Assembly (NCBI GenBank): GCA_001606155.1
Contig: LODT01000034.1
Coordinates: forward strand, 287,665-351,664
DNA: 64,000 nt
Source: Tieghemostelium lacteum
Lineage: Eukaryota > Evosea > Eumycetozoa > Dictyosteliales > Raperosteliaceae
Direction of reading: 5' to 3'
Positions 58,273 to 62,261 of the stretch are shown here, in pieces. Made by a program: the position numbers and the translations under genes. A model generated the notes under the pieces. The model did not search any database and was not told where the DNA came from. It worked only from the letters and a program-made list of their open reading frames with translations. Numbering within the stretch: the stretch's first letter is position 1; each line of letters starts with the position of its first letter.

Positions 58273-58847
58273 ATGGAAAAAATGAATAATAATAATAATA
58301 TTAGTAAAAAGAGAACTTTTACTAATTTTTTAAATGAAGCTAGTGAAGAGTTAAATGAAAATACTAGTAGTATAAAGATAAAAAAGCATAGAGATTTTTC
58401 AACACAAGAACAACAACCAAATTTTGGTGAAAAGAATAAACAAGTCATTCAAGATAATGAATTGTATTTATTAAAAATATTAATATAGGTAGAAATGTTT
58501 ATATTTACTCTATTTTACATTTTATTTAATGTTATACAACATCAATTAGAAATATTGGAGATACTAGTATTGATTCTAAAATCTCTTCAATATCAGCTGC
58601 AACATCTGGTATATCTTCTATTTCTACAATATCTTCTACAAGTGGTTACCCTACATCATTTGATATTTTTACATCAATTCAATTTATAAATGATATTGAA
58701 AGTTTAAATCTTCAGTTGAGAGATTCCAATGAATATGTAAATAAGATTAGTTTTGAATTGACAACTTATGAAACTAAATTAAAGTCGATGATCAATACTA
58801 ATGTTCTTTTGGATCTCAAAGAAAAAGATATGGATGGCTCACAATAA
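58273..58847 (+). CDS. Unknown Ser-rich coiled-coil protein
   Basis: About 162 residues in two exons, 58273-58463 and 58550-58847 (86-bp intron GTATTT...TTAG); the phases fit. The N-terminal half is polar and basic with a KKRTF patch and an Asn run. The middle is Ser/Ile-rich (ISSISAATSGISS), and the last 70 residues look helical (FINDIESLNLQLRDSNEYVNKI). No domain is recognised. Its 3' end converges on the 3' region of the selenophosphate synthetase gene, whose SECIS-like hairpin begins about 60 bp after this stop. Confidence 0.6.
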
Positions 58848-58908
58848 TAAATGTATTCAATGGTGGAATATTTCTAATTATTTTGTTTTATTTTAATTCA
58901 AATATAGA

Positions 58909-58978
58909 TAAACTATAGATATCATTTTAAACTTGAACACAGTGGTTTTAAAAGTTTAAATTTCATTACAATAATTTA
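58909..58978 (-). promoter_or_regulatory. SECIS-like element in the selD 3' region
   Basis: On the minus strand, about 235 nt after the selD stop, ATGA (58966-58963) is followed by arm TTTAAACTT (58960-58952), an apical loop beginning TTAAAACC, the complementary arm AAGTTTAAA (58934-58926), and TGAT (58924-58921). This is the eukaryotic SECIS core: an AUGA/UGAU non-Watson-Crick quartet, an 11-13 nt step and unpaired A residues in the loop. Outside the quartet, 58967-58978 and 58909-58920 can pair over about eight positions with one wobble, giving helix I. It recruits SBP2 and the selenocysteine elongation factor in known systems. Confidence 0.75.
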
Positions 58979-59211
58979 GAATCTACACTGTTTAAAATAA
59001 GACCATTATAATCATTACAATTGATTAAACCTTCTGCTCTCAATTTAATCATTTCTTTACATTATAATGTTGGTAAAATAATATTATTATTATTGTTAAT
59101 TGATTTTGTTATTTGTTATTTGTTGTTGGGAGTTGTTTTGATAATTGATTTTGTTTTGTAGTTTTGTGTATTGTTGTTTAAGGGGTTTTAATTTCATTCA
59201 CTAAAGTATCA

Positions 59212-60349
59212 TTAGAAATTTGAATTCCATTCAGCTTCAATGATATTTGGGTTTTCTAATATAATAGAGGTGTTTTCAGATTGAGGTAAATCCGATGCTA
59301 AAACTTTACCTACAATCCATGCAGGTTGCTTATCAATTTCTTGAATCTCTTTAATAAAGAGTTCAGCTTGATCAGGTGGCATTGCAATCAAGAGTCCACC
59401 AGAGGTTTCTGCACTTGTACCTTTATATAGGTTATAAAATAGATTTAATTTCTCTTCAATCTTCTTTACACCTTTTATAATAGGTAGTGTATGGATCTCA
59501 AATTTAACAGGAAGTAATTGGTTCTTTGCAAGGTTTGTAGAGTGACCTAGTATACCAAACCCTGTAACATCAGTAGCAGCATGTGCTTGATACTTTCTCA
59601 TTAATCTAGCACCAGTTCTATTCAAACGTGCCATTGAATTCATTGCAAATTGAAATACAACTTCACATTCCTCACGTGTAGTAATAGAATCTATTCTCGC
59701 CCATTTCTCAGGAATACCTAACCACTGATGATAATTTGCACATATCTGAGTACCCAATGGTTTAGTAAGTACCAACACATCACCAGGTTGTGCATTTACA
59801 GGTTTAATAAAGTCACTAGTCTTTAGAATACTAGTTGCAACACCACCTATAATAGGCCATGGATTCTTTACAGTTTGTCCACCTGTCACCTTAGTACCTG
59901 CAATTTTACATTGATCATTGAAACCCTCTATCATCTTTCTAGTTGACCAACTTCTCTGTTCAGGTGTCATATCAATAGAAGCTGCAAGTAACATTAACAT
60001 ATTATCACAATCATCTATACCAAAACTATAAAGATCTGATAAAACATTAGCACATGCAATTTTACCTTGAATATATGGGTCATCTACATTTGGGAAAAAG
60101 AACTTTAAAAACAATATATTAATACCAATAACTATTTATCTATATATATACAACAGGGTGTTATTAAGCACATACATCAGTTGTTGAAATTTGAACTATA
60201 TCAGGGAATTTAGTTGGTGTTATACTACAATCAAAACCTATACCATCACCAATACCTTCAAGAAGGGAGAGCAGTTCCTTCTGAGGTATTTTACATCCTC
60301 ACCCTTTTAGTTTTGTAAAATCTGTTAATTTACAAAGTGGTTCTGTCAT
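59212..60349 (-). CDS. selD: Selenophosphate synthetase, selenocysteine-containing (SPS2 type)
   Basis: Makes selenophosphate from selenide and ATP, the selenium donor for selenocysteine synthesis. Exons are 60176-60349 and 59212-60102, giving about 354 residues. Exon 1 reads MTEPLCKLTDFTKLKG, then UGA, then GCKIPQKELL. The UGA at 60299-60301 sits exactly where SPS2 proteins have the catalytic selenocysteine (KGUGCK), and the following Lys is the conserved phosphate-binding Lys. The exon join gives STTDFFFPNVDDPY. Then come GKIACANVLSDLYSFG, GGQTVKNPWPIIGG, ATDVTGFGILGH and GTSAETSGGLL, all family motifs. An annotation that treats UGA as stop would lose the first exon and the active site. Confidence 0.94.
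60299..60301 (-). other. In-frame UGA read as selenocysteine
   Basis: The codon between GGG (Gly) and GGA (Gly) of the selD active-site loop. Flanking sequence is conserved coding sequence on both sides, and a SECIS-like hairpin lies in the 3' region, so recoding rather than termination is the natural reading. Confidence 0.9.
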
Positions 60350-60445
60350 AGTTATGTGGGACTAGAAAGACTTTGAAAAATATCTAAAAAAAAAAAAAAA
60401 AATTAATTAAATTTATATATCTACAAATAAATAATAAATAGATAT

Positions 60446-62261
60446 TTATTTTAATGTAATATCCGAACTTTTACTTGATTTGAAGGAATATGAACCCATT
60501 TCACTAGTTTCAATTTCAAAATATTTGTGATGAAGTTTTGGGAAATATTTTCTAAGGAATAGAGAGTCGCTGTATAGTTGTTTGAATAGAGTAATGTCAT
60601 AGAACTGAACTGAAACAATACCAACCATTGCCAAACACAAGGCATTAAGGAACCGTATTGGAAAATCAGGTATTTTTAAAGTACAATTTTGTTCACCGTT
60701 TACAGCAGCACATTTCATCCAATCTGAAACGATATTAAAATATTCATCTTCTTTGCTCTCCATATAGAATTTATACATTGACAAAAATGTGAATTCAAAT
60801 ACTACAATAATCATAAAAACAACAGTTCTTAAATTAAAATATAATGCTTTTCTATTTGGAGATACTCTATACATAGCCAGAGTTTTGTAAATGAGATATG
60901 ACAATAGTATTAACATTAATGTTAAACTTATCCACATTGGAACTATATTTAAATAATTGTAAAAATTAATATTAAATTCTTTGAATAACTACTAAACTCA
61001 TTAAATACTTACTAAATAGTAAAACCAATTGCCAAGCAGAATTATCATCACTATTTATCCAACATCCACTAGTACCTAAAGAACTTGTATATTTTTTACC
61101 AATGGTCGGTATAATAGCTGTTATTAATATAAATGCCCATAATATATATTTTGATAATCTAAAGTATTCATTTTTTTCTAAAATATTTAATTAATGTTAA
61201 TTTATAATTAAAATAGATATGTTTCTGGGGTATAGGGTACATACTCATTTTAATAGTTAGATAAAAATCAATATATATCATTGTAAACCATATAATACAA
61301 CCTAGTGCTCCAATTTGAAATACAAAGCCATTTAGACCACATATTCCATCTGATTGACCTTTGTATCTTGCGAGATCATCAGTACATTGATTGGAATTGA
61401 CTTCAAATAAGAATGATAGTATAAGTAATAATTCACATATACAGTAAAACAGAATCAATTCCATTCTTTCTGCTATGGTGTTGGATACTACGGAATAAGT
61501 AAATATTAAAATTACAATTAAAAAGAATGATATGGTATATAATGTAATTTTAAAACCATCTAGTACCCTGTATTCGTAATCCTGGTAGATTTTAAATGGA
61601 CATCCAAGTGCACAATCACTATCTTCTACAAAATAATATATACCATTTTCAACTCTTTGACTTTCATTTACATAAACCAATGGTTTTATACACTCAAATG
61701 GTTCATTAACCATATTTAAATAGTTTTCATTTGAACAAGTCACTGTTTCATTTCCTTGATATGTTGTAGAATTTATAGGAAATGTTGGAAACCCGTCAGG
61801 GTCAATTCTGGTACACGAGAAACTTGGAAGATAATTTTCTATAAATGTTTTACAATTTATAACTGTATTTTCACAAATTGACCTACAAGGGTACCTTGCC
61901 AAATTTGTATTATTTACAACAACACATGGTTTAAACGTCTATGTTTATATTTTTTTAAAATATTAATATATTTAATATAATTTTAAACTTAATTTGAACT
62001 TACATTTAAACAATATAATGCAGTTGCAGATGATAAACATTCAGGAGTGGTAGCTTTAAAAAATTGTACAGTGGTATATAACATATCCTCAATTTCAGAT
62101 TGAGTTTGGTTACTTGGTATATAAATGGAAGTGTAGTTTAAAAATGGCGAACATAATGATGAAGTATTTAGAACTTCACATGTACCATTGTAGTCAAACG
62201 CATTAACTTGAATTGAAATAAAATACAAAAAAATTATACATAAAATATTAAACTTTATCAT
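60446..62261 (-). CDS. Frizzled/smoothened-like receptor (family F GPCR)
   Basis: A 537-residue seven-span receptor in four exons: 62004-62261, 61245-61938, 61013-61177 and 60446-60942. Phases agree, and the total is a codon multiple. I prefer the start MIKFNILCIIFLYF because it begins the signal peptide; an upstream in-frame ATG at 62300 is possible. The extracellular part has a Cys-rich FZ-like domain (CEVLNTSSLC, PECLSS, YCLN, KPCVVV, YPCRSICE) and N-glycosylation sequons. Seven hydrophobic segments follow from about residue 250, with a loop Cys in SGCWIN. The C-terminal tail is short and lacks a KTxxxW motif, as in dictyostelid fsl receptors. Ligand and coupling are unknown. Confidence 0.87.

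Follow-up and report, generated by a model that had tools for sequence, protein, structure and literature searches.

The selenoproteins of Dictyostelium discoideum are the closest described system. Lobanov et al. (2007) reported five of them, namely the selenophosphate synthetase SPS2, SelK, Sep15, MSP and a deiodinase homologue (DI), and labelling with 75Se gave four bands matching SPS, MSP, DI and Sep15 (PMC2375036, in the available part of its text). According to the same part, the SECIS elements of that species carry UGUA before the core, then a U-U mismatch, and AAA in the apical bulge; in the deiodinase element, the mismatch lies further away. In the accessible portion of Mariotti et al. 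(2015), SPS2 is described as scattered within the Amoebozoa, and UGA-containing SPS1 genes without a SECIS are known in insects (PMC4561486). Within the open-licence literature, we found no paper on selenoproteins of Tieghemostelium and, for those of Polysphondylium pallidum, only one tRNA paper, which is weak evidence of absence in both cases. Both the SPS2 selenoprotein class and its occurrence in dictyostelids are therefore already published, and an earlier note on this DNA had rightly called the class not new. Since the gene described below is an apparent orthologue of a published D. discoideum selenoprotein, it counts as an expected family member and not as a surprise.

Our analysis of the window (the whole 64-kb stretch of Tieghemostelium lacteum DNA) identified a selenophosphate synthetase gene on the minus strand (60349-59212), which encodes a protein of 354 residues and approx. 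39 kDa in two exons when spliced as homology indicates. We consider this locus to be the dictyostelid SPS2, a selenophosphate synthetase which is predicted to be itself a selenoprotein, with a probability of roughly 0.96. The enzyme very probably would carry selenium at its own active site by way of an in-frame UGA. The features of the locus are as follows.

60176-60349, minus strand: SPS2 exon 1, 58 codons, with the Sec UGA as codon 17
60299-60301, minus strand: in-frame UGA at the catalytic position, predicted to be read as Sec (KG-U-GCK), from the sequence and PDB alignment
60103-60175, minus strand: SPS2 intron, 73 nt, GTATGT...TTAAAG, GT-AG, phase 0, splice predicted from homology
59212-60102, minus strand: SPS2 exon 2, with the stop TAA at 59214-59212
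58921-58969, minus strand: SECIS core with GUA, the AUGA side of the quartet, a 9-bp helix II, an A-run with a short apical stem and UGAU, from geometry scan and folding
58909-58978, minus strand: the SECIS with a predicted 8-bp lower helix I, from RNAfold only
58887-58892, minus strand: AATAAA, a hexamer resembling a poly(A) signal, 28 nt beyond the SECIS core

Exon 1 translates as MTEPLCKLTDFTKLKG-UGA-GCKIPQKELL, and the UGA at 60301-60299 is the sole stop in its coding frame, while the other two frames contain 6 and 9 stops. Across the predicted 73-nt GT-AG intron, ISTTD at the end of exon 1 is joined to FFFPNVDDPY at the start of exon 2. The earlier note had proposed that this join restores the family, and indeed the spliced protein scores 224.9 bits with the NCBIfam selD model TIGR00476 (cut-off 125); the prokaryotic SelD models NF010705 and NF002098 also match it, with scores below their cut-offs. 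Phmmer searches against the PDB aligned residues 6-348 with 3fd5/9hjt ('Selenide, water dikinase 1', E ~7e-104) and residues 7-325 with 5l16 ('Putative selenophosphate synthetase', E 5e-92), which agrees with the claim of conserved coding sequence on both sides of the UGA and extends SelD/SPS homology across nearly the full length. We take 3fd5/9hjt to be human SPS1 and 5l16 to be the SPS of Leishmania. Both belong to the same family as the protein described here, with Thr (3fd5/9hjt) or Cys (5l16) aligned to the UGA codon, so that codon 17, directly preceding GCK, corresponds to the Cys of 5l16 and the catalytic site KG-UGA-GCK stands as it had been read before. Taken alone, the exon-1 piece (60 residues, with the UGA read through and two intron codons included) gave a weak match (E 6e-5). 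In a collection of prokaryote genomes, none of 160 pattern matches to the spliced protein was confirmed by a method that detects close relatives only. Automatic annotation will probably truncate SPS2 at the UGA or lose exon 1.

Eukaryotic type II SECIS elements combine an AUGA...AA apical bulge...GA quartet with a basal helix of about 9-10 bp and an extra apical mini-stem. The hairpin past the SPS2 stop, for which an AUGA, a 9-bp stem, an A-rich apical loop and UGAU had been noted, has this arrangement and position: it reads UUGUA-AUGA-AA-UUUAAACUU-UUAAAACCACUGUGUUC-AAGUUUAAA-A-UGAU, its core occupies 58969-58921, and its AUGA lies 245 nt beyond the stop. The 9-bp helix is formed by TTTAAACTT and AAGTTTAAA (58960-58952 paired with 58934-58926), the A-run is unpaired and lies on the 5′ side of the apical stem, which is very short, and UGAU is found at 58924-58921. 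When the extended stretch was folded with RNAfold, a lower helix of 8 bp (58978-58971 with 58916-58909) was predicted, together with an internal loop containing UGUAAUGA and an apical stem of 2 bp; because this predicted mini-stem is so short, the type II label is tentative.

For the inner 38 nt of the element, all nine basal pairs were reached by only 3 of 2000 dinucleotide shuffles. Its folding energy was equalled by 310 of 2000 shuffles, which is ordinary for the composition, so that folding energy by itself proves nothing for this hairpin. A scan for SECIS geometry gave seven matches on both strands of the window, and only the SPS2 element is preceded by GUA; the thresholds of the SECIS scans were set after four elements were already known, and match counts are therefore descriptive and not blind. 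Three AUGA sites in the same 3′ stretch upstream of the SECIS (59197, 59052 and 59015) fail the geometry scan. Rfam returned no match at the gathering cut-off in the 64-kb window and, even with E values up to 10 allowed, no SECIS family in 58600-60500; recognition by a curated Rfam covariance model, which the hairpin thus lacks, is not a defining criterion for SECIS elements.

The selenocysteine machinery that the earlier note had taken to be implied by this gene was found in the genome (a 23.33-Mb assembly of 43 contigs). The absence of tRNA-Sec, which had been named as grounds for doubt, does not apply: one tRNA-Sec gene with the anticodon UCA scores 65.6 bits against a cut-off of 47 bits. 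It is located on another contig than the window, in which ARAGORN detected no tRNA. SepSecS is present (E 1.8e-125), as is domain III of eEFSec, and one of six genes with an L7Ae domain encodes an SBP2-like protein with SBP2 as its best PDB match (E 8.4e-19). These genes make up the set by which the eukaryotic Sec trait is recognised (tRNA-Sec, SepSecS, eEFSec, SBP2). The PSTK candidate is weaker, with 72.6 bits for TIGR03575 against a curated cut-off of 382.35; it also matches KTI12, and its match to L-seryl-tRNA(Sec) kinase in the PDB is weak (E 3e-4).

Besides SPS2, five genes of the genome combine an in-frame UGA with a SECIS-like hairpin. Three of them were found through Pfam models, and each is followed by a GUAAUGA hairpin: a deiodinase-like gene (UGA context GSFTUPPF, hairpin 23 nt after the stop), Sep15 (CKURLGAFP, 34 nt) and SelK (SGSUAK, 62 nt). 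We presume these UGA contexts to be the known active-site contexts of the three proteins; the putative Sec of SelK, placed by a short last exon (SGSUAK), is the least certain assignment. A fourth gene, for an MSP-like membrane protein (locus L004, 452-1550), was picked by eye among the listed matches of a pattern near the published motif, which gave 166 matches against 42 in a reversed control. It contains two UGAs and is followed by a hairpin 241 nt after the stop; the second UGA arises as a split codon at the splice junction TG|A of a 77-nt phase-2 intron. Its membrane-protein appearance, the two UGAs and the SECIS make it a probable MSP-like gene, and the protein has no Pfam match above cut-off. 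In the 284,916 bases of the loci (both strands counted), the SECIS scan yielded 28 matches, and the six with GUA represent five distinct elements, one each for SPS2, the deiodinase-like gene, Sep15, SelK and the MSP-like gene.

A second pattern, fitted to these five elements, matched 117 times against 49 times in the reversed control, and 100 of the 117 matches were listed and examined. Together with the deiodinase element these made 101 candidates, of which 7 passed a fold filter. Six of these lie downstream of a gene with an in-frame UGA. At the remaining one, C23:1373175, no selenoprotein-like frame was seen. The search yielded the fifth gene (locus L046, C23:19000-25000, minus strand), which encodes a secreted-looking glutathione peroxidase (GPx) whose catalytic codon is UGA (NTASFUGMT). 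Its two mapped features are as follows.

C23:21139-20861, minus strand: GPx domain in locus L046
C23:20578-20530, minus strand: GPx SECIS, a hairpin 81 nt after the stop that passes the fold filter

In the alignment with PDB 1gp1 (E 5e-46), the UGA faces a non-standard residue (X), presumably the Sec of bovine GPx. No GPx other than this Sec-type enzyme was detected in the genome. As for the structural evidence in these elements, the helix count was matched by 468 of 2000 shuffles for SelK and by 317 of 2000 for MSP, neither of which is unusual, and with 22-nt flanks the best fold of SelK and GPx differs from the SECIS hairpin. When three elements were used to build a covariance model, the held-out Sep15 element scored 20.1 bits (E 0.46), compared with 21.9 bits for a chance match, and the model is thus a weak detector of this element.

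Could the UGA be read through without selenocysteine? Such genes have been described, since the hymenopteran SPS1-UGA genes have a UGA at the same site and are without a SECIS (PMC4561486, as far as its text is available). The locus described here differs from them in its SECIS past the stop and in the Sec machinery of its genome. Five other genes with UGA and SECIS also speak against readthrough of this kind, as does the detection of only one SPS gene in the genome (43 contigs, 23.33 Mb), and we regard this explanation as very unlikely. That SPS2 is a decayed gene with a genuine nonsense TGA, or that the TGA is a base error, has still less to recommend it: exactly one stop occurs in 354 codons, it falls on the Sec/Cys residue of SPS2, and it is followed by further conserved coding sequence, as it is preceded by it, and then by a SECIS of correct geometry. 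Moreover, no second SPS gene was detected, so that a null allele would deprive the Sec system of its own enzyme.

The true SPS protein might also begin downstream of the UGA or use another first exon, with the hairpin being a product of chance. Exon 2 alone is indeed an open frame of 296 codons, which is compatible with a downstream start, but its product would be without the active-site segment KG-x-GCK. Another first exon would find little room in the 96 nt between exon 1 and the stop codon of the preceding frame, 60446-60937, and a chance hairpin is at odds with the GUAAUGA element being the sole such match to SECIS geometry in the window. We therefore judge this alternative to be extremely improbable and retain the reading of the locus as an SPS2 selenoprotein.

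For this SPS2 selenoprotein, we propose a spliced mRNA in which the catalytic codon is UGA and the 3′ UTR contains a SECIS hairpin. Through this hairpin, the SBP2-like protein and eEFSec would be brought to the message together with Sec-tRNA(Sec), whereby the UGA would be read as selenocysteine. If the enzyme is active, its product selenophosphate would feed the synthesis of Sec-tRNA(Sec), and the pathway would loop back on itself, since the enzyme depends on its own product. Read in this way, the gene would indicate that a selenium pathway operates in the lineage and would extend the picture of D. discoideum selenoproteins to a lineage that probably represents another major dictyostelid group.

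The two species appear to have SPS2, SelK, Sep15, MSP and DI in common (PMC2375036, available text). In both, SPS2 has a Sec, here predicted, and a 3′ SECIS assigned, here tentatively, to type II, with UGUA before the core and an A-run in the apical bulge. The MSP-like gene has two UGAs, and D. discoideum MSP is said to carry two Sec in the part of that paper available. Sec-type GPx is a difference worth keeping, being absent from the D. discoideum selenoprotein list as published in that part of the text. A second difference concerns the SECIS itself. GUAAUGA is common to six elements, those of SPS2 (58921-58969), L004, L034, L035, L036 and L046. The base preceding GUA varies, giving UGUA in SPS2, DI and MSP, AGUA in Sep15 and GPx, and CGUA in SelK. 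Directly after AUGA, SPS2 has an A and the five remaining elements have a C, whereas the D. discoideum query motif contains TGTAATGATT with U at this position (a comparison with the motif and not with a D. discoideum gene; PMC2375036, available text); hence a U-U mismatch directly after the core is seen in none of the six. Four of the elements were found through protein homology and are unbiased at both of these bases. The pattern that led to the MSP element prescribed TGTAATGA and left the following base free, and the one behind the GPx element prescribed GTAATGA and allowed only A or C after it.

We put at about even odds a broader reading of these comparisons, in which a dictyostelid, probably of group 3, would possess six selenoproteins or more, among them a secreted GPx of the Sec type, which has no other detected GPx beside it and no counterpart in the published D. 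discoideum set. In this reading, C mostly comes after the GUAAUGA of the SECIS elements (in 5 of 6), at a position that is U in D. discoideum, and the unpaired base next to the core would have shifted jointly in unrelated genes, as though following an altered SECIS-binding protein. The small SECIS set from one genome could be used to ask which of its bases are truly constrained.

At the 3′ end of SPS2, there is no AATAAA between the stop and the SECIS. This interval does contain ATTAAA, a weaker variant, at 59192 and 59049, and transcripts could in some cases end ahead of the SECIS at these sites. The SECIS nearly abuts a convergent neighbour, as had been observed before: the TAA of an open frame on the plus strand occupies 58845-58847, at a distance of 73 nt from the SECIS core, which places the two 3′ ends nearly tail to tail. 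AATAAA is found at 58892 on the minus strand for SPS2 and at 58846 on the plus strand for the convergent frame, and the 3′ UTRs of the two genes therefore probably overlap or abut. Upstream of the SPS2 SECIS, another hairpin, TGATTAAA...TTTAATCA, is located on the minus strand at 59010-59052. The same stretch holds a second TGTAATGATT at 59019-59010, which is identical to the first part of the query motif for D. discoideum and is without a correctly spaced AAA, possibly a relic or a product of chance.
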